A DNA stretch of 36,733 bases from Bacteroidota bacterium (GTDB taxonomy: Bacteria; Bacteroidota; Ignavibacteria; Kapaibacteriales; UBA961). The notes under the pieces were generated by a model. That model was given only the letters and a program-made list of their open reading frames with translations. It was not told the DNA's origin and ran no database searches. The position numbers were made by a program, and so were the translations under genes. Positions 19,294 to 33,424 of this stretch are shown here, in pieces. The DNA is taken from contig JAFDZU010000050.1 of NCBI GenBank assembly GCA_018266765.1, positions 36,008 to 72,740 on the forward strand, given 5' to 3'. Position 1 is the stretch's first letter. Every line of letters begins with the position of its first letter.

Positions 19294-22200
19294 TTATTTC
19301 AGAAACACACATTTTTCGTTAAGTACTTGGTTTGGGCTTTTCAAAACTACAAAATATAATCCGCTTTTGATTTCATCCGGAAAGGAGAATTGATGACTGC
19401 CCGATTCTATATTACCCGAAAATAAAGTAGAAACTTCTTCACCTATTGAGTTTACAAGCGACAAGTGAATGTGACTATTATCTTTAGAATAGACAGTTAC
19501 AGAATAATCCGGCGAATCAATAACTTTTAGAAACAAGGATATTGCGTTTGTATTTACTTGTCTATTTCCAAAAGCACAGTATTGAGCTCTAACTAATCCG
19601 TCTTTTGTGATAATTTTGCTAAATCCATTTGCAAACGAATCTACCTTAACTCTAACAGGTGTTTGATATTCGTTATTTAACAGTACATCACCTTGCAAAA
19701 CTGCGATAACAGTACTTTCATCTAAGTTAGAATTTGTAGTTCTAATAGTTACATCGGAATTATTTACTTGTAAAATTGCAGGAAGCTGCCTTCCAATCAT
19801 TCCTTCATTTGGTCGAAATGAACGAAGTCGGACAAGATTACTATTGTATTTAAGTCCAATACTCATTGCACTATTCGATGACTGATTCATCAAGCGAGTT
19901 AATTCTTCTGCTGTTTTTGTCGATGTTTTATTTGGTGTAAATCGTAACGATATCGCAAGTGGTTTACCGACTTCGGCATCTATTGTATCTGCACTTATTG
20001 TTCCACAGACAATTCCCGTTGCAAAGAGCGAAAGAGTTGTGTCAGTCGGTGTAATCCATTTACCGTTGGAACTAAATGTAAGTGTGGTTTTTTCATCACC
20101 AATTGTCGTAGGAATAAATCGAATTCCCAATTTAAAAATGCTATCGGGAACTATTTGAATTGAATTCTTATTTGAAAGTGTAAATCCACTTTGTCCTGAA
20201 GAATAGATTGAATCTATAATCAAAGGAGCATTTCCCGGATTACGAATTATAATCACTGTATCTAAAACTTCTCCGATGCACACCTTCCCTACTGCCAACG
20301 TCCTTGAACGAATATCCACAAGTGGCTGGACACCTCGACCAAGTAATCGTAATGGTTTAATCGATGAGCATGAAGCTGAATTATTGAGAGTTATATTCAC
20401 AATTGCATTTCGATTTTCAATATCTTTTGGTTTGAAATCAATATAAACTACCAAAGAATCATTTGGAGTAATTGAATGAGGTAAAATGATACCATTAGAA
20501 AGAGCTATGGAATATTCACTTGGGAATAAACCCGATACTGTTATAGAATTTAATATAATTGGTGCAGTTCCTGTAGAGTGAACTACAATAGAATCTCGTT
20601 TGGTAGAATCTACATGAACATCACCAAAACTAAGAGAATCTGAAGTAGTAGCAATTCGTGTAACAACTTCGGCGACTGCTCTTGTTTGCACAATTCCTGT
20701 TTGTGAGAATACACTCACATCAGCCGAATATTGACCAACAGACGTAAATACTCCGGTTACATTCACGAAAACACTTGAATTCGGTGAAATCGTAAATGCT
20801 CCGCTTGGCCTAATACTCCAACCTTGAAAAGTATTTGTAAGTTGAATACTATCAATAACTATCGGGCAGGCAGTTGTATTTTTTAACTCAATAGACTTAA
20901 TGGAACTTTGATTCACACAAAGTGTATCGAAATCAACAATTGGTAGAAGCGATGAAATGGCAGGAATATCTGCTTCGCCAACAAGAACTAACGTATCAAG
21001 AAAAGGTATTGATGGACTTTTTACGATTGCAAGCGCAGTATATTGTCCTCCAATTGTCGGTGTAAAAACAAAATCAATTGTTTTTGATCCACCACGAGGA
21101 ATGGCATCGGGAAATAGAGTAGTAGGTGTAATTGAAAATACATTTGCTCCTTGGATTGCAGTTGTAAATCCACTTTGAAGCTGAACACTACACCCGCCAA
21201 TATTTAAAATATCCCAATCTCCTTTGGCAGTATCACCTATACAAATTCTACCAAAATTTAAAGTGTCAATTCTTCTCCCGAACTCAAATTCAGCTTCCTT
21301 GCTCGAAACCGTTACAAATGCAGTGTCAAAAACCGAAACATTCGTTGTATTTCCCGGTACTAAGGTTTCACTATCATTTAAGGTTAGAACAACACCTATA
21401 GTTGGTGTGCTGTTATTTATAGTTGGCGCATATCGAATTAAAATTGTGATAATCGAATCTGCTTTTGCAATCGCAGGTATTGGCTGAACAATACTAAATT
21501 GTCCTACATCTACAGGGTTCCCCGTAAGTAATGCAGAAACAGTCGGCAAACACCTATTACCCTTTAGGTTGAATGTAACAGCAAGTGTGTCAACCGTTTG
21601 CGGGCACACAGGCGGGTAAGTTTTATCTCTTGCCTCAAGCACTCCGAGCAAACCCGGTACACATACTTCAAGAGTATCACGCAGTACAACTGTATTCGAA
21701 ATGTCTTTTATAACAGCAATAGGTACACGATAAGAAGTAGCAACCAATCGAGGAATTGGATAAAGTGATAAAGTCGAAACTCCGGTTTGAAGGGTAAGTA
21801 AATTTGTTGGAATTACAGTACTTGTCATAGTAGGAGCAAGCAATCCAAGTGGTAAATTTTCAATAACTAAACGGACATTATCAGCATTTTTTACAGTATC
21901 AAGATTTGAAACAAGATATAATGCTTGTAATGTATCAGGCAAATAAGGAGAATATCCAGCAATTCCGCAAGGATTTTCATGCTGAACTTCTACACTTAAA
22001 CAAGTTCCAATTCCTGCAAGTCCAAATCCTCCGCCGCCTCCACCACCCCCTCCACCGCCATTTCCACCGCCAAATGCAACATTTAATGAATCTACAATTC
22101 CAATCTCTGTTGATGCTTTAAGTTTAGTTTGACCAATTGCAAAGTCTTCTTCATCCCAGATTAACAGAACTCCGCTATCTGTATATTGATTTGTTGAAGC

Positions 22201-23061
22201 AAGTCGCTCTTTCCACATCACAGAACCAAGTCCGCGAATCCCTTGTGAGGTATAATCTGTCCAATTACCAAACAGTAATCTGTCTGGGGTAATTAAATTG
22301 TCATCACGAAGATTTCCACGTGCTACAAGTCCGGGGGAAATTGGTGTGCCTTCGAGTCCGAGCCAAAAATCAGGAATACCTTGTGCTATTCCATTGTCAA
22401 ACTGCTGTTCAATAGTACTATATCCAAATGTAGTTGCAATGGGAGCTTGATCATTGTTTCCAATTTTCGTATCTATCAGCAATAATACACCGACACTGTG
22501 TTTTTTACTTGTTGAATTCTGTACGGTAACACTCATCCTGACAAATCCGCCACTTGACCGCTTCACCGGAAACATTGTAAATAAAAATCTGATTGTATCA
22601 CCATCCGGCATTACTCCGAATGAACGAGCATTGATACGTGGTGTACCTGATATTGTATCAGGAAAAATTGATTGAACTTTTATCGGATTCTTAGTGGGAA
22701 TTGTGAAGTCTGAAGTGTCGGACTCATACGACTGTTGGAATACTATGTTATCTACTTTTACGTGAAAAAAAGAAGTGTAATTTATAGGTTTTCCGCTTGT
22801 ACCATCTTCACGGTAAATTATTCCTTTTGTTGGTGTTGTATAATTAGTAGAAATAGAAAAATGCCCGTTGTTCAGTAACGTCGGTGAAAGTTTGTAGGGT
22901 GCAAGTGCGTCGTTTATTGTTAAGGAAGTTTGAGCAGTTGAAATTTTTGAGGTAAACAATAAAACTATGATAACTGCCAAAGATAATTTGATATTATTAA
23001 ATAAAAATAACAATCGTTTTGCACATGTATTGCCTAAATTATTTTCTTCTTTTTTGGTCAC
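19294..23061 (-). CDS. giant surface protein: poly-Gly linker, anchor-D repeats, cohesin-like and T9SS-type C-terminal domain
   Basis: This 1255-residue protein is last in the four-gene operon. An N-terminal membrane-spanning export signal (residues about 20-45, ends STAQ) precedes a beta-rich region of unknown family. Residues 331-347 form an almost pure glycine linker (GGG, N334, eleven Gly). Beyond it, about residues 590-1020 contain ASPM/SPD-2/Hydin repeats (LNFGRICIGDTAKGDW; SLSFGDVHVDSTKRDSI). From about 1024 to 1150 a cohesin-like beta sandwich follows (DAEVGKPLAISLRF, NSNLVRLRSFRP). The last ~75 residues resemble a type A sorting domain (HLSLVNSIGEEVSTL, SGLYFVVLK). The ATG overlaps the OmpA gene stop by 4 nt. 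Likely T9SS-exported and surface attached; ligand unknown. Confidence 0.8.
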   Translation of the reverse strand: MTKKEENNLGNTCAKRLLFLFNNIKLSLAVIIVLLFTSKISTAQTSLTINDALAPYKLSPTLLNNGHFSISTNYTTPTKGIIYREDGTSGKPINYTSFFHVKVDNIVFQQSYESDTSDFTIPTKNPIKVQSIFPDTISGTPRINARSFGVMPDGDTIRFLFTMFPVKRSSGGFVRMSVTVQNSTSKKHSVGVLLLIDTKIGNNDQAPIATTFGYSTIEQQFDNGIAQGIPDFWLGLEGTPISPGLVARGNLRDDNLITPDRLLFGNWTDYTSQGIRGLGSVMWKERLASTNQYTDSGVLLIWDEEDFAIGQTKLKASTEIGIVDSLNVAFGGGNGGGGGGGGGGGFGLAGIGTCLSVEVQHENPCGIAGYSPYLPDTLQALYLVSNLDTVKNADNVRLVIENLPLGLLAPTMTSTVIPTNLLTLQTGVSTLSLYPIPRLVATSYRVPIAVIKDISNTVVLRDTLEVCVPGLLGVLEARDKTYPPVCPQTVDTLAVTFNLKGNRCLPTVSALLTGNPVDVGQFSIVQPIPAIAKADSIITILIRYAPTINNSTPTIGVVLTLNDSETLVPGNTTNVSVFDTAFVTVSSKEAEFEFGRRIDTLNFGRICIGDTAKGDWDILNIGGCSVQLQSGFTTAIQGANVFSITPTTLFPDAIPRGGSKTIDFVFTPTIGGQYTALAIVKSPSIPFLDTLVLVGEADIPAISSLLPIVDFDTLCVNQSSIKSIELKNTTACPIVIDSIQLTNTFQGWSIRPSGAFTISPNSSVFVNVTGVFTSVGQYSADVSVFSQTGIVQTRAVAEVVTRIATTSDSLSFGDVHVDSTKRDSIVVHSTGTAPIILNSITVSGLFPSEYSIALSNGIILPHSITPNDSLVVYIDFKPKDIENRNAIVNITLNNSASCSSIKPLRLLGRGVQPLVDIRSRTLAVGKVCIGEVLDTVIIIRNPGNAPLIIDSIYSSGQSGFTLSNKNSIQIVPDSIFKLGIRFIPTTIGDEKTTLTFSSNGKWITPTDTTLSLFATGIVCGTISADTIDAEVGKPLAISLRFTPNKTSTKTAEELTRLMNQSSNSAMSIGLKYNSNLVRLRSFRPNEGMIGRQLPAILQVNNSDVTIRTTNSNLDESTVIAVLQGDVLLNNEYQTPVRVKVDSFANGFSKIITKDGLVRAQYCAFGNRQVNTNAISLFLKVIDSPDYSVTVYSKDNSHIHLSLVNSIGEEVSTLFSGNIESGSHQFSFPDEIKSGLYFVVLKSPNQVLNEKCVFLK

Positions 23062-25109
23062 CTCATGCCTCCCTCTTCATCAAGGTCAGGAAGTAATGGA
23101 GTAGCAATTTCAACAAATACACGTCGATTATAAAAACGACCTTCGGGCAAAGTATTATCAAATAAATCAACTTCTCCAAGTCCGTTTATATGTTGAGATT
23201 CAGGTTTTACAAAATCATTAATACTGCTCTGGACTACTGTAGCTCTTGCTTGTGAGAGTTTTAGATTTTTGTCTTCACTACCGATATAATCAGTCATCCC
23301 GTCAATTCTTACATCTGAATTCGTACTAATACGAGAACGAATCAACCTCATAATTTGGTCGTTTTCTCCGGAAATAGTCGAAGCTCTGTCATAATTAAAC
23401 AGAATCAAACTATATCGTTCAATCAAAGTATCACGTACTATTTGAGAATTACTGCGAGACGATGTAAATGTTCTGCGAAGCGGAATACTTCTTTCGGCTT
23501 TGACAATACTTCCACTATCAGTTTTGATACTCATCACAGCAATTACTACTTGATTTGATTTAACATCCGAAAGATTTAGATTTGTTGTATTCAATACAAT
23601 ACTCTCGGTATTATTTGAATGAGTTGTAGTAAGTAGTTTTCCGGTGTTATCTAAAAGCGAATAATCAACGGACTCTATTGCTCCTTTATAGATGACTGTC
23701 GGATTTAACCGAAGTGAATTCGGCGATATTGTTGTTTTAGCATTTTTAATAAATACAGGTGCTAAAATACGTTGGTCATTTGTAGTCATTTCAACACGAC
23801 GATTTTCAGCCCGTCCATCTACTATTTTTCGATTTGAGGTGATTAGAGGAAGTATTCGTGATTGTACTAAAATGCGTTCATTGGCAATTCCCCAAGTTTC
23901 ATGTAAATAAGTACGGATTGATTCAGCACGCTTAATTGATAAAACTTTGTCATTTCCATCATCCAATGGTTCAATGCATCCTGTTAGGTATAAAACTGCA
24001 TCAGGATATTTCTTCATTCGAAAACCAATAATATTCAAAATATCATGATAAACATCTAACTGGTTATTGGGTAATTGTGCTTCACTAAAGTTTGAGGAAG
24101 TAGTATTATTAAGTATATGATAACGATTTATTAATACATCAGTTTTTGCTTCAAAAAAAATGTAAGGTAAAAGTGGTAAAATGTCAAGAGTTCGATGATT
24201 ATTGACAGTCAACTCAGCATAATTTTCTAAACTTCCATCAGAATTAATATTCTGAACATCAAGCAATGCAATAGCGGGTGGAATTGAAACAATTTGAATT
24301 GGAAGTGTAGGCGGTTCGGCTGGAAGAGGTTGCGGAAGTTTTGAAGTTTCAAGCACATACATAAGTCCTATACTTCCACGTAGTGCATGAACTTTCCAAT
24401 CTGCATCTGAAATTACATTCAAGAACGAATATTGAAAAGAGACTTCAGGATTGAGTATAAATGATGGTGAAAGCGGAATCAATGTTCCCAAATTAGCTAC
24501 TGCTCCAATACGAATTGTGTTTGAAGCTATATTGCCTTGTTTGTCGGTAAAATAACCGGCGGCAATCCTACGAGTATTGGAACCATCTATGAATGTAACT
24601 CCTTTAGGACTAATAATACTTTCGTATTGTTCGAAAGCATTGCGAGTCGGAATTCCAATTGAAACACCTAAACCTAAATACATTTTATCCGTTATAAAAT
24701 TCTGACCAATTGCATCGAGAGTAATATAATCTAACGACACATCAAGTGAATGTTTCGTATTCAAAGTTGTCGTCGTTCCATCGCTTAAGGCAATGAGTGG
24801 TTGCACAATATTATCAGCTTCAAACGAACCGCTTGCTTTATGATAGTAAATTCTTGGAGAAATTGACCAAGTTTCATTCAAAGGTAAATTTGCATAATTC
24901 CCTGCTATCCAACGTAACGATGTAGTTCCGTTAAAAGTTCCGCAGTCAAGAAGTCCCTCATTAGTTGTGAGAGTTCCGCTGTGCAAATTAAATGCACCGC
25001 CAAGCATTATACCAGCCGATAGTTTATTGAAAGTCTGAGTATAAACTGATAACGAACATGCAATAATAGCAACAACATACATTAAAAAATAAGTAATTTT
25101 ATTTTTCAT
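23058..25109 (-). CDS. OmpA-family outer-membrane protein with two OmpA-like domains
   Basis: This 683-residue protein has a signal peptide (ends around residue 24), an N-terminal beta-barrel-like region to about residue 265, and a Pro-rich hinge (PQPLPAEPPTLP). Two OmpA-C-type domains follow: residues about 320-455 and about 568-670. The second has the peptidoglycan-binding pattern intact (GMTDYIGSEDKNLKLSQARA, with Asp and Arg). The first keeps the Arg (LSIKRAES) but the Asp position looks like Glu (CIEPLDDG), so it may not bind peptidoglycan. The segment between them (about 460-560) is beta-rich. In the operon it sits 5 nt after the Kelch protein and overlaps the giant protein by 4 nt. Probable outer-membrane anchor for the assembly. 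Confidence 0.85.
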   Translation of the reverse strand: MKNKITYFLMYVVAIIACSLSVYTQTFNKLSAGIMLGGAFNLHSGTLTTNEGLLDCGTFNGTTSLRWIAGNYANLPLNETWSISPRIYYHKASGSFEADNIVQPLIALSDGTTTTLNTKHSLDVSLDYITLDAIGQNFITDKMYLGLGVSIGIPTRNAFEQYESIISPKGVTFIDGSNTRRIAAGYFTDKQGNIASNTIRIGAVANLGTLIPLSPSFILNPEVSFQYSFLNVISDADWKVHALRGSIGLMYVLETSKLPQPLPAEPPTLPIQIVSIPPAIALLDVQNINSDGSLENYAELTVNNHRTLDILPLLPYIFFEAKTDVLINRYHILNNTTSSNFSEAQLPNNQLDVYHDILNIIGFRMKKYPDAVLYLTGCIEPLDDGNDKVLSIKRAESIRTYLHETWGIANERILVQSRILPLITSNRKIVDGRAENRRVEMTTNDQRILAPVFIKNAKTTISPNSLRLNPTVIYKGAIESVDYSLLDNTGKLLTTTHSNNTESIVLNTTNLNLSDVKSNQVVIAVMSIKTDSGSIVKAERSIPLRRTFTSSRSNSQIVRDTLIERYSLILFNYDRASTISGENDQIMRLIRSRISTNSDVRIDGMTDYIGSEDKNLKLSQARATVVQSSINDFVKPESQHINGLGEVDLFDNTLPEGRFYNRRVFVEIATPLLPDLDEEGGMR

Positions 25110-25114
25110 ACGAT

Positions 25115-28100
25115 TTAATGAATAATGGTTATTGGAACAGAAAGTACCGAAATCCCATCCATGATAAGTTCACAGAAATAGACACCATTTGAGAAAGATT
25201 GCATATTCATTTTTATAATAGATTCTGCGTTTTTAACTGCGACAACTTCACCAAGTACATTACGTATTTGGATAATAGAATTACTGAATGACGGAGCGAT
25301 AATATGAAGTGTAACATCTTCAATAATTGGTAAGGGTGTAGCAAACAACACCACAGCCCCCTTGCCGGAAACTAATGCACTACGTCCGCCGCACATATTT
25401 CCGATGACAAGATTTCCAAAAGTTTGTTGAACACAAACACTATTTCCCGAACCACTTTGAAGCGAAAGTGAAGTTTGAATATCATTCCCGCGCAAAACAT
25501 CACATTCTATTCCGAATACTGAGTCAGGCAATGTAGGATGGGAATTCCAAAGAAGTGACAGAACAGATTTTCCAAAACTATTAGAAACTGTTGATGAAGC
25601 TGTATTTATATAGTTTTTACCTGAAATATTAACAATTGCTCTTGGTATTAACACTGAACCATTATAAAGTAAGTTTAAGATTGTGGAATTTGTAGATGAA
25701 ATAATGTCGCTTCTACGAACAATGATAGTTACTTTCTCGCCAAGAGAAGCATTTACATTATCAATAGAAAATTTCATACTTGGAAGTACATTTATCGAAA
25801 CAGTAGACTGAGAAAATCCTTGATTAGTAAGTACAACTATTGTTGCTTGCTGAACGCCATTTTGAGAAGGAATAAAAACTATAGTTGCTGGTGTTGTTTG
25901 GTGTGGTAATAAGGTTTTACTAACATTACCAACCGAATATCCGTTCATATTTTGGACATAAATACTGTCAATTCTAAGATTATCAAAATTGCTCGGATTC
26001 TCCAATACAATCGGTAATTGCAATGAATCTCCTTCACAGAGTGTAAACTGCTGTGATTGCGGGATATTAATATTTATCGAACGATTACGAGGTACAAAAC
26101 AAAGATTTGCAAGGCAAATTGTATCACCATTATTCACAAATCGGACTGTTCCTCTTTCTTGTGCTTCGCGTTGTGGTTTGAAAATTATTTCAATAATTTC
26201 ATTGTCTTTCGGCTTCATCAATAGAGGGAATCGAGATGTATTTTTAATTCTAAAAGTACCGGCTAGTGACGTTTGAATAATTGTACTGTCAATGATAACA
26301 TTCAAGTCACTATTATTGGTTACAACAAGCTGATAGACAAGAGTATCACCGGGAGCAATTATTACGGTATCGCAAGCAGTTTGAGAAGTTGTCGTTATAA
26401 ATGCTCGGATTCCAGAACCTATCAAAGATATAGGAAATGCTTTGTCACTAATGTGGATTATTGCTCCGGCTCCAAAAATTTGACGAGATTTAGGTGAGAA
26501 TTTCACACAAATATTCAACGTAGAATCAGGGGGAACTCGTACTCTTCCAATCGGAGAAACAATAGTGAAAGAACCACTTGGATCAATTTCGATTGAGTCA
26601 ATTACTGTTGTATCTTTACCTTCATTCTTAATTGCCTGAAAGCAAATTGTAGTATCAGTCAAAACTCTACGAGTGCCAAAATCCTTACTATTTGTAAGCA
26701 CAGAAATCGTTGATTTTATTCCTTCACCAGATATAAGAACAGAATCTATAAGTGAGCCGGCATTAAAATACAAATAAGCACTTCTTTTTCCAATAGTATT
26801 GGGACGGAAACGAACTTCTATATCGAGTGAATTATTTGGAGCAATTGACACAGAATCGCGTGAATTAACCAATCGAAATTCTGCTGAATTTGGTATTCGT
26901 ATTGTACGAAGCTGAACAGGCAAGAGCCAATTATTAGTCACTTTTACTATCAATCGCTGGCTTTCTCTTCCAATTTCTTCCTGACCAAAATCTACATCAT
27001 TTGCACTAAATGGTTGATATTGCTCACATTGAGTAATAGTTAAATTTTGTGAAATCCCACCGGTGACTAATGGTAGATTATCTGCATCTATAGCAACTGT
27101 TCGTTCGGAAGCTGAAACCTTCAAATCTCCAAAAGGAATCCAAGAACCATTCGGATTGTTATTATCGGGTTGAGAAAATATTTCAGTTTTAGGAGTTGTT
27201 CCGTTAGTAGATTGCCCCGCTACTAACAAAAAACTTTTTGTTGTATCACGAATCCCGGCAATTTGAGTAATAAATGATTTGGCACGAGGTGTTTGCATTC
27301 TCGGCATCGGTCGCCAACCGCTTTTTGTATCATACCATTCACCGCGATTTGTCGGAAATCCGGTTGTATCAATTCCACCAACCATTCGTGCAACTTCTGA
27401 ACCATCAGTAAAGTTTGCGGCAAATCGTTGCATAAATGCCGGTGGATTTGCTCGTGCATCCCAAGCAGTAATATTCAAGAGTTCTGTCGCTGAAGTATTA
27501 TTTAATTCACCCGAAGCCGTAAGAACAGTTGAATCATTTTTTGCACCATTGAGCATAAGTGTAGCGTGTTCACTTCGTGGTGTAGCCATATCACCAATCC
27601 GCTCTATTGCAAATGTACTTATATTTATTCGAGCACTTATTGAGGTTGGAGTTCCGGAATTTATTGCTCCACTATTTTGAATTCTTCCACCACTTATGAT
27701 TACATATCCTTTTTTATTATAGGCAGATGCACAATTTCCGACTGCCGCCGGAAGATTCCCAATCATTCTCCAAGACCACGATTTTGAAATTGAATTATAT
27801 TGAAGAACCTCAACACTTGGTTGTGATGAATAATTTCCCGTTGAGCCGGAAAAACCACCAATTGCAAACACAATAGATTCACTATTTTGATTACGTACTG
27901 CTACAAGTGAATGATATGCACGGGGAAATTGAAGTTGATTAGCAGTTTGAGACCAAGTTCCGTTACTATAAATAAATGAAGAAGTTGTCGAATTACCGGA
28001 ATTTGATATTCCACCACAGACAAGTACTTCTCCTGTATGAAGTGTTATGCTTTTGTGACCTGTGAGTGAAATTGGGAGCGGCGATGTAAATCGCCACTCC

Positions 28101-28240
28101 GGTTTCGTAGTTTGAGCATCAGCATAGTTCAATTGTAAACCTATCAAAGCAATTAACACAAATAGTTGAGTTATTACGGCTTTGAGGTAAATAAATACAA
28201 TTTTACTACTAAATAGAAACAATGCTCTTTTGTAATACAT
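25115..28240 (-). CDS. Kelch-repeat / anchor-D / cohesin-like surface protein with T9SS-like C-terminus
   Basis: This 1041-residue exported protein has a hydrophobic N-terminal signal (ends near YADAQ). Residues about 45-400 form Kelch-type blades with repeated GG-motifs (VLVCGGISNSG, IVFAIGGFSGS, YVIISGGR). From about 412 ASPM/SPD-2/Hydin repeats run to about 800 (DVDFGQEEIGRESQ; DFGTRRVLTDTTI). A cohesin-like beta sandwich occupies about 821-940 (ASLGEKVTIIVRR, LNLLYNGSVLIPR). The final ~75 residues resemble the T9SS type A domain (VTLHIIAPSF, NVLGEVVAVK, SNGVYFCEL). It starts 7 nt after the preceding gene's stop, with a GAGGA ribosome site. A scaffold or adhesin role is inferred from the domain set only. 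Confidence 0.8.
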   Translation of the reverse strand: MYYKRALFLFSSKIVFIYLKAVITQLFVLIALIGLQLNYADAQTTKPEWRFTSPLPISLTGHKSITLHTGEVLVCGGISNSGNSTTSSFIYSNGTWSQTANQLQFPRAYHSLVAVRNQNSESIVFAIGGFSGSTGNYSSQPSVEVLQYNSISKSWSWRMIGNLPAAVGNCASAYNKKGYVIISGGRIQNSGAINSGTPTSISARINISTFAIERIGDMATPRSEHATLMLNGAKNDSTVLTASGELNNTSATELLNITAWDARANPPAFMQRFAANFTDGSEVARMVGGIDTTGFPTNRGEWYDTKSGWRPMPRMQTPRAKSFITQIAGIRDTTKSFLLVAGQSTNGTTPKTEIFSQPDNNNPNGSWIPFGDLKVSASERTVAIDADNLPLVTGGISQNLTITQCEQYQPFSANDVDFGQEEIGRESQRLIVKVTNNWLLPVQLRTIRIPNSAEFRLVNSRDSVSIAPNNSLDIEVRFRPNTIGKRSAYLYFNAGSLIDSVLISGEGIKSTISVLTNSKDFGTRRVLTDTTICFQAIKNEGKDTTVIDSIEIDPSGSFTIVSPIGRVRVPPDSTLNICVKFSPKSRQIFGAGAIIHISDKAFPISLIGSGIRAFITTTSQTACDTVIIAPGDTLVYQLVVTNNSDLNVIIDSTIIQTSLAGTFRIKNTSRFPLLMKPKDNEIIEIIFKPQREAQERGTVRFVNNGDTICLANLCFVPRNRSININIPQSQQFTLCEGDSLQLPIVLENPSNFDNLRIDSIYVQNMNGYSVGNVSKTLLPHQTTPATIVFIPSQNGVQQATIVVLTNQGFSQSTVSINVLPSMKFSIDNVNASLGEKVTIIVRRSDIISSTNSTILNLLYNGSVLIPRAIVNISGKNYINTASSTVSNSFGKSVLSLLWNSHPTLPDSVFGIECDVLRGNDIQTSLSLQSGSGNSVCVQQTFGNLVIGNMCGGRSALVSGKGAVVLFATPLPIIEDVTLHIIAPSFSNSIIQIRNVLGEVVAVKNAESIIKMNMQSFSNGVYFCELIMDGISVLSVPITIIH

Positions 28241-28247
28241 AGCATCC

Positions 28248-31200
28248 TCAACGTATTACCGTCATTAGAGTAGAAAATTGAGAACTACCGGAAACTACCC
28301 TTACTAAGTATGTACCTTGTTCAAGATTTGAAAGTTCTAGTTGAACTGAATTGACTCCTGTTTGCATGATTCCACCTTCAAATTGCAGTCTATTTCTTCC
28401 TAATAAATCAACAACATTGATAATTACTTTTCCACTTAGTACTTGATTAAAATGAATAGTTGCCATATCATCTGTCGGATTAGGTACAATTTCAATAGAT
28501 GAATTATCCACCAAATGATACTCTTCTTGCACACCAAGTACTAATTGAGGAAACTTTGCCCAACATCCGGTTGCTTGATTTGCACCATTTGTTTGTATTG
28601 AAAATGTTTTTGATGATGGATTTTCGACTGTTAGCTGAATACCGGTTGCATCAGCTGAAGTCGTTGCATAAATAGAATCTTTACCTGTTTCATCTGTAAC
28701 TTTTATAGTATAAAAACTTGCGTTCGGATCGGCAGATTTTACCCAATTCAAATTTACAATATTTTTAGTTGTATATGTTCCTTTCCCATTAGAAGGAGCA
28801 ACAAGTCCTACTTTTGGATTTGTTAAATATGTTGAAGAATACACGAAGTTTGTAGCTCGGTCTCCGTCCCAACGAACAGCATATATATAATATCCACATT
28901 CTTTGAGTGAGTCTGTCAATGTATAAGAGAACGAACCTGTTTTTTCGTCAACTGTTCCAATACGATAACCGTCATTACCTTTATCGTCTGTGTCTATATA
29001 AAATTCTATAATTGACTTATCTGAAGCTTTAGAATTATCCCAATTACAAAATACCGTTCTTACTATTTGATTTGAGGTAAAACTAAATTCAGTACGAGGT
29101 TTTATTATTGACCATATATGAATTGAATCTCCATTTTTCTTTCCAATTACTCCAAGTTTCCAGTCGCCGAGCTCCGGATTTTTTAGTACCCAAAGACCGA
29201 CATCGGCGGTAGAAGCAGCAGGTGAGAAAATAACCAATGAATCTGAAGTTGTTGAAGTAAAAATTTTTTGTGAAGGAGAAATAAGCACTGTAAGTGGCTG
29301 AACATCTGCTTTAATTTCTACATAAGCATAATTAGTAGGTACATTTATAGTAAATGGAACATATGTAGTATCGCTTGCTTGTTTTTTGTTCCCATTTGTC
29401 TTGAAGGCAATACCACCCAGATTTTTTACATTTCCACTCTGAATACCGATAAATTGTCTGGTCTCAGTAAATGGACTTTTGCTGACATCAATCCACGCCC
29501 CCCAGGTACCAAGCCAACCCAAATCTAAATCAAACGATCCTTGTGTATTACGTATCATCATCTGTCCCGATGTTACTTTTAAAGGTAGTCCGAGTTTAGA
29601 GTTTATTAACTGAAATGCGGGATGATTCTTGAATAAATCAGGGATATAAATATCACCACGAATAGAGCCGGATAAAACAAATTGAGGAAGAACATTAGCC
29701 GAACCGTTTATAGTACCACTTATCAAAAATTTATCTCCTCCCAATTGCCCCACATCAATTCCTAAATTGTTTAACCCAAGATAAATAAGTGGTTGATAAA
29801 AGTTCAAAGCAAGCGAAAATCCACCCCGTAATTGCGCTCCCCAAATATCAATTTTTCCAAAAAATCTAATTTTTCCATCAACAGTAAATTCTCCAAATTC
29901 ATTCCCTTGTAAAGTTCCTTCTGCTTCGAATATTTGCCATCCTGGAGCATCACCAATTGCATCTTTAACAAACCTAAAAGCACCAATTTGATTCCAATCA
30001 TCTCGGTTTGCAAAGAACATAGTTCCTCTGAGTGTTTTAGGACCGGTTTGCCAATTACTCATTTCTAGTTCGACTCCTCGCCATAATGCTACGTGCGCTG
30101 GCGGAGGTTCTGGTATGGGTACTGGTATCCCACCTGAACCAAGTTTTGCAAGAATTTTAAATTGTTCAATTCCGTTGTCAATGAAAGTACATCCTGCTCC
30201 TATATCTGAAAATAAAGGAGCTTTTAACAAAATATCAAAAGAAAACTTCTTGTTTGGTTTTTCGTAAGCAATTGTCATGTTTTTAATACACCAATCTTTT
30301 GATTTAGGAATTCCAACATTATTGACCTGTAAGCTAGGTGGTAATTCCCATCCTGATGATGATATTTTTACATCTTTAAAGACAATTCCTCCAGTATTAT
30401 CAGATGGATGAAAAAGTATATCACAACCGTCAGAAAATGTCTTGAAGATAAGTCTTATGTCAAAAAGTACTCCCGTTGGTGCATTGGCATCCCCTTCTAA
30501 TCGTAACCTGTCTATAAATGGAGCTATCCCGGCAAGATATAATGGAGCACTTTCACTAACAGACCAGGGAGTAGGTAACTCTAAATTTTCTTTTAGATTA
30601 ATCGTTCTATTTACTCCAGAAGATATTACAACTCCATTTGTTACACAAGCACCTAAAAAATTAAATGAGGACTTACCTGGGGTTGTATCAATTATAAATG
30701 ATGCTCCTTTAAATTTTATTGCTTCACCAATCATTACCTCTTCTCCACCATCTAACGCGATTTTACCATCACTCAGTCCTTTAAAAGAAGCTTTTTTATC
30801 ACTTACCTTAACAGTGAAAATATGGTTTCCTTTATAAAAATATTTCCATTCTCTTCGTGGTACTTCTATTTCAAATGTATTACTTTTTACTTCTCCAATT
30901 TTTCCTACATCTAATGTCAAATCAATAGTTTCTCCTAGATTTAGTTCGCTTGTAATTTGTTGTCCTTGTTTACCTGCATTTACGACCGACAAACTTTTAG
31001 TACCATCAGCAGTCTTTTCATAATAGCGAAATTGAAATTCAAAATCTTGAGTAACATTCGTACCATTAACGTCAACAGTTTTTACAAATCGTTTTGTAAA
31101 ATTCGCCCAAATAACTTGTGAAGGTTGTCCGTAATCTTTAATGGCTAAAACTGAGCTACAACCAATTTCAGTACATTCTCCCCTAAATTTATCGGAAGGA

Positions 31201-31826
31201 TTTCTACCTTTGTACACAGGAAAATCTGTTACAGTTTTTACTTTATAATAGTTAGCACCAAATGGAACATTAGCATTATGCCAATTATTGCCAAGTGGAT
31301 TGCATGGAAATTCAGGATTTGCCCAAGTCATTTTATCAATAGTCATTCTAACTAATCCGGTATTGAAATAATACCATGCGGCATCTTTGTATTTGCTAAT
31401 ATTTAGTGAAACAGCGCTGATATTCCCATCACTACCTTCTATTGAGAGTGTTATTGTGCTCGTAAATTTATCTTGTTTTCCAAGGCGTATGAGTGTTTTT
31501 TCATCTTCCCATAGTATCGTTTTCTGACCATCTCCAACTACTAAACCTACATCTCCTGAAAGTTCAGATGCAATGGGACGTTCACTGAAATTGACATTCC
31601 CCTTACACTCAGCCAACAGTTTAACAATTGATCCTTTTGGGTCAAAATCTTTTGCTGTGTAGGTAATTTTAACATATTGACTTTCTGTTTCATCATTATG
31701 TTTTAAAACTTCAATTTTTATATCAGAAATAGTTGGGTCAGCGGCAAATACTGATATTGATGACAACAGTAATAAAAACAGTACAGTACTAAACAGAAAT
31801 CGAAAATTTGTACAATTGAATCTCAT
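28248..31826 (-). CDS. first gene of surface operon: T9SS cargo with unrecognised core
   Basis: This 1192-residue protein has a clear signal peptide (ends VFAAD) and a good ribosome site (GGAGG 6 nt before the ATG). The N-terminal ~130 residues have a beta-sandwich look (ISDIKIEVLKHNDETES..., TYTAKDFDPKG). A Pro-rich hinge (GGIPVPIPEPPPAHV) lies near residue 570. The region after it repeats strands of the type 'TVDGKIRFFGKIDIWGAQLRGGF' and 'ISGTINGSANVLPQFVLSGSIRGDIY', suggesting a long beta structure. A fibronectin-like segment (VGLVAPSNGKGTYTTKNIVNLNW) precedes the T9SS type A domain (IEIVPNPTDDMATIHF ... EQGTYLVRV). The core is not recognised. Being promoter-proximal, it sets the operon start. 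Confidence 0.8.
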   Translation of the reverse strand: MRFNCTNFRFLFSTVLFLLLLSSISVFAADPTISDIKIEVLKHNDETESQYVKITYTAKDFDPKGSIVKLLAECKGNVNFSERPIASELSGDVGLVVGDGQKTILWEDEKTLIRLGKQDKFTSTITLSIEGSDGNISAVSLNISKYKDAAWYYFNTGLVRMTIDKMTWANPEFPCNPLGNNWHNANVPFGANYYKVKTVTDFPVYKGRNPSDKFRGECTEIGCSSVLAIKDYGQPSQVIWANFTKRFVKTVDVNGTNVTQDFEFQFRYYEKTADGTKSLSVVNAGKQGQQITSELNLGETIDLTLDVGKIGEVKSNTFEIEVPRREWKYFYKGNHIFTVKVSDKKASFKGLSDGKIALDGGEEVMIGEAIKFKGASFIIDTTPGKSSFNFLGACVTNGVVISSGVNRTINLKENLELPTPWSVSESAPLYLAGIAPFIDRLRLEGDANAPTGVLFDIRLIFKTFSDGCDILFHPSDNTGGIVFKDVKISSSGWELPPSLQVNNVGIPKSKDWCIKNMTIAYEKPNKKFSFDILLKAPLFSDIGAGCTFIDNGIEQFKILAKLGSGGIPVPIPEPPPAHVALWRGVELEMSNWQTGPKTLRGTMFFANRDDWNQIGAFRFVKDAIGDAPGWQIFEAEGTLQGNEFGEFTVDGKIRFFGKIDIWGAQLRGGFSLALNFYQPLIYLGLNNLGIDVGQLGGDKFLISGTINGSANVLPQFVLSGSIRGDIYIPDLFKNHPAFQLINSKLGLPLKVTSGQMMIRNTQGSFDLDLGWLGTWGAWIDVSKSPFTETRQFIGIQSGNVKNLGGIAFKTNGNKKQASDTTYVPFTINVPTNYAYVEIKADVQPLTVLISPSQKIFTSTTSDSLVIFSPAASTADVGLWVLKNPELGDWKLGVIGKKNGDSIHIWSIIKPRTEFSFTSNQIVRTVFCNWDNSKASDKSIIEFYIDTDDKGNDGYRIGTVDEKTGSFSYTLTDSLKECGYYIYAVRWDGDRATNFVYSSTYLTNPKVGLVAPSNGKGTYTTKNIVNLNWVKSADPNASFYTIKVTDETGKDSIYATTSADATGIQLTVENPSSKTFSIQTNGANQATGCWAKFPQLVLGVQEEYHLVDNSSIEIVPNPTDDMATIHFNQVLSGKVIINVVDLLGRNRLQFEGGIMQTGVNSVQLELSNLEQGTYLVRVVSGSSQFSTLMTVIR

Positions 31827-32154: not shown

Positions 32155-32877
32155 TCATACTACTGTTTTATGAAGAAGTATAGCTTCTTGCTCAATTTCA
32201 CGCAGTAGCATGATACGATTAGCATTTGCTTCTTCGGATTGTTTTGGCTCAATATCGTCGGGATCTCCCAAACCCGAATTCCGAAAAGTTCGGAGATTTT
32301 CTAAAATTTTATCGCGAATTTGTTGTGAGTTAATAATCCCTCGAAGTATTGCTTGATTTGGATTACTACCTTTACCATGTTTGCCTGTCCCTGCATTTCC
32401 TGCAGTTTCTATTTTGAGATTTGCAAATCCAAAATATCTTTCAAGTGGCCCTTGTGATACACTCACATTTTGAATATTTTGATACGAAACGGTTATTTCC
32501 CGTATTGTCCATGCTCCCTGACGTACAGTAACACTTGTATCGGTAATTATATACCAGCGAAGTTCATAATCTATACGCATAACCACAAATAATACTACTG
32601 CTTTAACAAATGCAAACATTACAACAGGTATTGCCAACCACATAAATAAAGGTGAAGCAACTAATATGACAATGATTCCAATACTAATACTTAAAACCCA
32701 AGTAATCGCATATATTAACCATCCAAGTAACAGATAACTCCAATATGAATTATCTGCACGAAGCACACGAAGATATTTATCATTTTCATGCCCATTAGGG
32801 ATTTTTGGACTCGTTGATTCAATTTTTAAATAAGGAAAAACAAGGTTTTTCACATATTCTACAAAAGAATTAAGCAT
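32155..32877 (-). CDS. bacterial PH-domain membrane protein (second of a pair)
   Basis: This is a membrane protein of about 240 residues of the YdbS/YdbT bPH2 type: paired hydrophobic helices (LLLGWLIYAITWVLSISIG and MWLAIPVVMFAFVKAVVLFVV), followed by a bPH2 domain (RWYIITDTSVTVRQGAWTIREITVSYQNIQNVSV). The Gly/Asn-rich tail loop (NAGTGKHGKGSNP) and a charged C-terminus follow. I choose ATG 32877, since AAAGGA sits just upstream within the previous gene; an earlier in-frame ATG at 32892 overlaps that ribosome site. It overlaps the first PH gene by 8 nt, so both are translationally coupled. Function of the family in bacteria is poorly defined, probably envelope-related. Confidence 0.8.
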   Translation of the reverse strand: MLNSFVEYVKNLVFPYLKIESTSPKIPNGHENDKYLRVLRADNSYWSYLLLGWLIYAITWVLSISIGIIVILVASPLFMWLAIPVVMFAFVKAVVLFVVMRIDYELRWYIITDTSVTVRQGAWTIREITVSYQNIQNVSVSQGPLERYFGFANLKIETAGNAGTGKHGKGSNPNQAILRGIINSQQIRDKILENLRTFRNSGLGDPDDIEPKQSEEANANRIMLLREIEQEAILLHKTVV

Positions 32878-33424
32878 TGTTTTTCCTTTCAATTGTTATT
32901 CTAGTAGCATGAAGTTCATCTCGAATGGAAAGCAGCAGTTTTAATTCCTCTTCAGATGATTGAACAGAATTTGTAACCATCTGTTGTGTTTTAGTTTGAG
33001 AATGAACACCTCTCATTCTTGAATAAAGAAAATTACGAATCAATTCAAACTCCATCATACCTGAAATAGATTCTTCAGAATTCGCACTTCCCGAAGCTGT
33101 TTGAATTGCAACCGTTCCCAATCCGAGCCACCGTTCAAAAATATTACGAGTAACATGAATATCTTGAATACGTGAATAAGTTACATAACTTTCTCTCCGC
33201 CAAAATATCCCGTAAGCTATTGAAATTCCTTCAGCATCGAAGCGGTAGCGCAATGTATGATACCGGAAATACATGGGCAAAATCACAAACGGAAAAAATA
33301 CAAGACTTGTTAAAGCGTATATAATATAGAGTTTGAGTAAATTAGGGTGAGGATGCGACAGTTTGTAAACATTTTCTTCATTTATCGCCTCTAAATGGGC
33401 ATGGTTTTCTTGGGTAGAATTCAT
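32870..33424 (-). CDS. bacterial PH-domain membrane protein (first of a pair)
   Basis: This 184-residue protein has two adjacent membrane segments (LLKLYIIYALTSLVFFPFVIL and following) and then a bPH2 domain (LRYRFDAEGISIAYGIFWRRESYVTYSRIQDIHV). It resembles YdbS. A Glu- and Lys-rich C-terminal helix follows. The stop region overlaps the start of the second PH gene. Such pairs are widespread in bacteria and usually have no known substrate. It is divergent from the Tat-pirin gene, with a shared intergenic region carrying an 18-bp dyad. Confidence 0.82.
   Translation of the reverse strand: MNSTQENHAHLEAINEENVYKLSHPHPNLLKLYIIYALTSLVFFPFVILPMYFRYHTLRYRFDAEGISIAYGIFWRRESYVTYSRIQDIHVTRNIFERWLGLGTVAIQTASGSANSEESISGMMEFELIRNFLYSRMRGVHSQTKTQQMVTNSVQSSEEELKLLLSIRDELHATRITIERKNNA

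Follow-up and report, generated by a model that had tools for sequence, protein, structure and literature searches.

A co-inherited three-gene cassette of Kapabacteria encoding a candidate wall-anchored surface complex with an exchangeable partner

Three consecutive genes of an uncultured Ignavibacteria lineage, designated here P2, P3 and P4, constitute a co-inherited cassette whose gene order has been kept far beyond chance. We put at about even odds (roughly 0.5) the reading that this cassette specifies a cell-surface complex in which P3 is the wall platform and the product of a fourth gene, P1, an exchangeable cargo, the whole serving glycan adhesion or handling. The genes (Table 1) reside in a window of 36,733 nucleotides, i.e. 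the whole stretch of DNA analysed (G000:C52:36008-72740), within a genome of 3.71 Mb in 106 contigs; the names given to its relatives include 'Candidatus Kapaibacterium' and Ignavibacteria. The analysis comprised searches over 99 genomes, gene maps and a class-wide profile search of 391 genomes.

Table 1. Positions in the window of the four genes and of the P4 fragment used for structure modelling
Feature	Coordinates	Strand	Details
P1	28248..31826	-	1192 aa
P2	25115..28240	-	1041 aa
P3	23058..25109	-	683 aa
P4	19294..23061	-	1255 aa
P4 residues 44-500 (modelled fragment)	21562..22932	-	pLDDT 80, pTM 0.77, 18 sequences

The sequence-only reading of this DNA, in which a tightly packed four-gene operon was described, proved exact as to gene sizes, common direction and spacing: P1 and P2 are separated by 7 nt and P2 and P3 by 5 nt, while P3 and P4 overlap by 4 nt. 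The genes are probably read as a single transcript; the promoter scan (57 promoter-like sites versus 57.3 in shuffled sequences) and the terminator scan were both uninformative. The fixed stoichiometry of the products once deduced from this packing does not follow from it. The neighbours of the cassette in the window are functionally unrelated to it (a bacterial PH-domain pair, pirin, YceI, DUF6588, DUF5686, CTP synthase, RecG and others). The PH-domain pair consists of two overlapping bPH_2 genes upstream of P1 and on the same strand (window positions 32155-33424). A plasmid origin was also considered for the locus and gave no match.

P2, P3 and P4 have the same order and strand in the host and in 21 related genomes, among which no rearranged set was seen. 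They are contiguous on one strand in 18 genomes (in two of which an end gene is cut by a contig end); in G001, G002, G044 and G083 contig breaks fall inside the cassette, and the junctions still visible agree with the order. Across the holders, most neighbouring genes of the cassette overlap slightly or are less than 20 nt apart, the largest distance being the 355 nt between P3 and P4 in G022. In G044, two overlapping ORFs take the place of an intact P4 gene (L058:698-4391), owing to either a frameshift or an assembly error. The cassette is present in a single copy per genome. The class-wide profile search detected it in 20 of 391 genomes; all seven holders in the phylum sample belong to the same order, another holder (G120) represents a different order of the same class, and no cassette was found outside the class in the phylum samples. 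Being present in few, scattered genomes of the class, the cassette is therefore patchily distributed.

The genes flanking the cassette in relatives do not match those of the window. The divergence of the three genes is rank-correlated (0.92 for P2/P4, 0.83 for P2/P3 and 0.77 for P3/P4), as expected for any co-inherited genes, because the genomes share ancestry. P2 and P4 of the window are 72-74% identical to their counterparts in congeners and 50-53% identical to those of G025, a member of another family. It is unlikely that no complex exists and that these are unrelated cargo genes, co-transcribed and co-inherited by chance: tail-bearing neighbours are indeed common, since the host encodes at least 149 proteins above the cut-off for the sorting tail of the type IX secretion system (T9SS), and P1 comes and goes, but the order of the other three genes is fixed, with translational overlaps, in several families with differing flanks, and no broken case was found. 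The earlier proposal that a surface assembly is encoded here as a unit is thus supported for P2-P3-P4 and has to be relaxed for P1, which often lies elsewhere and is exchanged. Likewise, orthologues scattered singly over related genomes, the pattern named beforehand as counter-evidence, are not what P2, P3 and P4 show, while P1 shows it in part.

The domain make-up of P2 and P4 reveals a shared design. P2 consists of a signal peptide, a Kelch propeller (residues ~45-400), an array of Ig-like domains of the ASH/choice-of-anchor-D type, a C-terminal domain and a weak T9SS tail. P4 contains a signal peptide, a private supersandwich head (44-325), a Gly-rich linker (336-348) and a cysteine-rich Ig/ASH array, followed by a C-terminal domain and weak T9SS tail, both in common with P2. 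The two proteins are homologous over ~600 C-terminal residues (P4 ~625-1255 with P2 ~441-1041; hhalign E 1.3e-29), so they represent a single type of rod that is fitted with a different head in each protein. The Kelch, choice-of-anchor-D and (in P3) OmpA domains predicted from sequence were confirmed by domain searches; for P2, Kelch_6 and Kelch_3 scored above cut-off and the P2 profile matched Kelch structures at E 1e-15. The cohesin-like modules proposed in addition were not recovered, as there was no Pfam cohesin match and the profile of the P4 C-terminal region gave no meaningful match to PDB sequences. Of the three T9SS-like tails originally recognized, that of P1 passes its cut-off, whereas those of P2 (22.5 versus 27 and 22.3 versus 23 bits) and P4 (20.7 versus 23 bits) fall just below the curated values; at E<0.01 a tail was found in 8/16 P2 and 6/17 P4 orthologues.

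No part of the cassette is better conserved than the head of P4 (mean identity 52%, compared with 39% for whole P4), which is encoded at essentially a single site in each genome. In the model, residues 44-325 match the supersandwich fold of galactose mutarotases and GH94 N-domains, with Z ~16 over ~210-240 residues; the best 50 structure matches (Z 16.6-14.4) mostly involve model residues 1-282, and the Foldseek E value for the head is only ~2e-4. A Z score of this size for a predicted structure indicates the fold, not the ligand. Sequence searches did not connect the head with aldose epimerases or GH94, Pfam searches up to E 10 returned no match except one DUF in one member, and no GH94 or aldose-epimerase domains were detected in relatives; a carbohydrate role is therefore deduced from the fold. 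Kelch propellers and supersandwiches are fold classes common in carbohydrate-active or carbohydrate-binding proteins.

These folds also bring to mind extracellular glycan-processing enzymes, with the P4 supersandwich and the P2 propeller both catalytic, encoded by a surface sugar-utilisation or glycan-remodelling operon. Numerous invariant positions (D, E, H, N, W and R) in the mutarotase/GH94-like P4 head are in keeping with catalysis, as are weak matches between some proteins of the P2 family and the propellers of sialic-acid epimerase and copper oxidase. We nevertheless regard this reading as unlikely, given that none of the Pfam models of carbohydrate enzymes was matched, that no sugar transporters or hydrolases were found beside the cassette among the window neighbours, and that a wall anchor combined with extended Ig stalks suits retention and binding at least equally well.

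P3 is the putative anchor of the proposed surface complex. Its N-terminal part comprises a signal peptide, a putative small outer-membrane beta-barrel (~63-233) and a proline-rich linker, while its C-terminal part is composed of a degenerate OmpA-like domain (~310-445), an Ig-like linker and a canonical OmpA domain (584-670). The barrel match is weak (OMP_b-brl_2, 18.2 versus 27 bits, E 0.003); the OmpA domain passes its cut-off (44.1 versus 27.2 bits) and can be aligned with OmpA domains of known structure, 2kgw, 5u1h and 3td3 among them. In this second domain T606-D607 and R622-A623 are invariant in 16/16 sequences, and the first domain is devoid of the Asp. By alignment, the Asp/Arg pair sits at the peptidoglycan-binding positions of OmpA, a protein for which binding is established; D607 and R622 correspond to the residues with which Acinetobacter OmpA binds diaminopimelate.

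Tail-bearing proteins can be expected to be exported, since each of the 41 genomes searched encodes the T9SS translocon SprA, that of the host included (above cut-off at G000:C43). The original remark that T9SS core genes are lacking is thus correct for the window and does not extend to the genome, whose set of tail-bearing proteins is very large for 3.7 Mb. According to the reading that we prefer, P2 and P4 would leave the cell via the T9SS as long Ig-like rods with a common stalk and separate heads (a Kelch propeller and a supersandwich, respectively). P3 would act as the platform, with its barrel inserted into the outer membrane and the OmpA domain at its C-terminus gripping peptidoglycan, so that the rods would be held to the wall. 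Most probably, such a structure would adhere to or handle a glycan, be it external or surface-borne.

In Flavobacterium the gene for the carrier SprF lies beside that for SprB, which has a type B tail and a dedicated carrier barrel (PMC12635249). If the cassette were a motility or adhesin module of this kind, the P3-type barrel would be a dedicated carrier tying the giant to an internal moving structure, not to static peptidoglycan. The adjacency of P3 paralogues to giants with T9SS tails, described below, recalls that of SprF and SprB (PMC12635249, PMC9723704). We judge this possibility improbable all the same: the tails seen are of type A, while that of SprB is of type B (PMC12635249), and the OmpA residues of P3 point to peptidoglycan. 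P3 is not a member of the SprF family, because searches of Pfam and NCBIfam, accepting E values up to 0.1, gave no PorP/SprF match and the protein has no terminal Cys-X-Cys (no cysteine pair occurs at the C-terminus of 16 orthologues).

P1 differs from the other genes in its looser connection with the locus. It encodes a signal peptide, a poorly modelled N-terminal half (in which orthologues carry an MG2 or transthyretin-like domain), a long beta-rich middle, two fibronectin-III-like domains (~910-1098) and a T9SS type A sorting tail (1114-1185). The tail scores 36.4 bits against a curated cut-off of 27 and was recognised in all 16 orthologues when E values up to 0.1 were accepted. The full-length model is poor (pLDDT 63, pTM 0.39), and its matches are confined to the fibronectin-III-like and tail parts (~910-1192), the middle being barely covered by the comparison.

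The gene lies directly upstream of the cassette in 11 genomes (the host, G025, G001, G002, G094, G075, G060, G081, G077, G071 and G083), with two copies in G025. The two P1-type genes of G025 share a strand, and between them lies a 569-aa ORF in the opposite orientation (L039:9720-19396). Elsewhere P1 is convergent with, and downstream of, the cassette (G092, G093 and G393) or located at another site in the genome (G076, G023, G037 and G042); it was not found in the holders G014 and G022 or in the fragmented G044, and family members occur in seven genomes that have no cassette. Its cassette membership is loose, because its place varies. It is nonetheless tied to the cassette, being present in 16/19 holders versus 7/79 non-holders among 98 relatives (Fisher p 2e-10). 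The P1 protein of the window is 60-64% identical to those of G025, from another family, and only 22% identical to that of G001, from the same genus; in the tree it falls within the G025 pair (support 99/96) and not with its congeners. Either lineages have thus exchanged P1, or differential loss has left it over from an ancestral set. P1 is not core to the cassette and represents an exchanged part, which may function as a replaceable T9SS cargo using or extending the P3 platform.

A surface-layer lattice, another of the products suggested earlier, would likewise employ large, exported, Ig-rich proteins and a wall-anchoring partner. It is very improbable here, because the cassette has one copy and is confined to a small, patchily spread minority of genomes; moreover, the heads appear specialised rather than lattice-like.

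The cassette does not stand alone. Paralogues of P3, ~30% identical to it, are present in all 99 genomes searched. In 21 of 26 P3-paralogue loci examined the immediate same-strand neighbour, often overlapping by 1 or 4 nt, has a T9SS tail and/or an Ig/ASH array, a count taken off the gene maps with no formal background rate, and to be read against the abundance of tail proteins in the host genome alone. In G005 (C82:13364-22155) the gene for the SprA translocon is followed, after ~320 nt, by a P3-like gene in the same orientation. The occurrence of P3 paralogues beside tail-bearing giants across the order thus makes the cassette one variant of a recurrent module, apparently a broad and undescribed one in Kapabacteria.

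More tentatively, and with some doubt, one may envisage in Kapabacteria a large undescribed class of envelope machines, each with an OmpA-barrel platform reserved for one or two Ig-stalk proteins that the T9SS exports. The cassette would then be a two-headed version, with the P4 head as a new supersandwich family (a surface lectin or enzyme) and P1 as a swappable tip. If the platform reading is right, T9SS cargo can be fastened to the wall by an OmpA barrel of its own, as a substitute for, or in addition to, attachment to LPS or SprF-type carriers. The bacteria of this lineage are uncultured; our literature searches returned no study of the secretion or adhesion genes of Kapabacteria, and nothing relevant on choice-of-anchor-D domains in connection with the T9SS. 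P3-like barrels recur beside a range of giants, and the many natural variants thus available lend themselves to comparison.

Several known systems resemble parts of the cassette. OmpA, OprF and Omp38 (PDB 3td3, 5u1h) share with P3 the combination of a barrel (putative in P3) and an OmpA domain, as well as wall-site Asp and Arg residues 15 positions apart; P3 differs from them in having two OmpA-like domains (the first degenerate), an Ig-like linker and a fixed place between two surface giants. The P4 head (44-325) has the fold of galactose mutarotases and GH94 N-domains (for example PDB 3nre, 3mwx, 8ho7), but with 6-11% identity, no Pfam match and no GH94 catalytic barrel, and it is predicted to be exported to the surface on an Ig stalk.

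Within Kapabacteria, modules built on P3 paralogues (L102, L103, L111, L115 and L120) have the structure [P3-like]-[~1440 aa ASH+tail]-[P3-like]-[372 aa]-[682 aa]. As in the cassette, an OmpA-barrel gene overlaps the gene of a T9SS-tail Ig giant, whereas the heads are different, additional genes are present and there is no Kelch/supersandwich pair. The L102-type operon is conserved in the f2 genomes, with 1-nt overlaps and a second P3-like protein of ~680 aa, and is partial in L067.

Among characterized systems, the gliding operon remFG-sprCDBF of Flavobacterium (PMC9723704) is comparable in being a single-strand operon that encodes a T9SS-exported giant surface protein together with an outer-membrane partner (PMC9723704, PMC12635249). 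The cassette departs from it in the absence of matches to the SprB, SprF and PorP families, in its type A-like tails, in domain order and in a partner that is an OmpA fusion with no C-terminal Cys-X-Cys. The sprCDBF genes are therefore the nearest known arrangement, and the resemblance is one of logic, not of descent.
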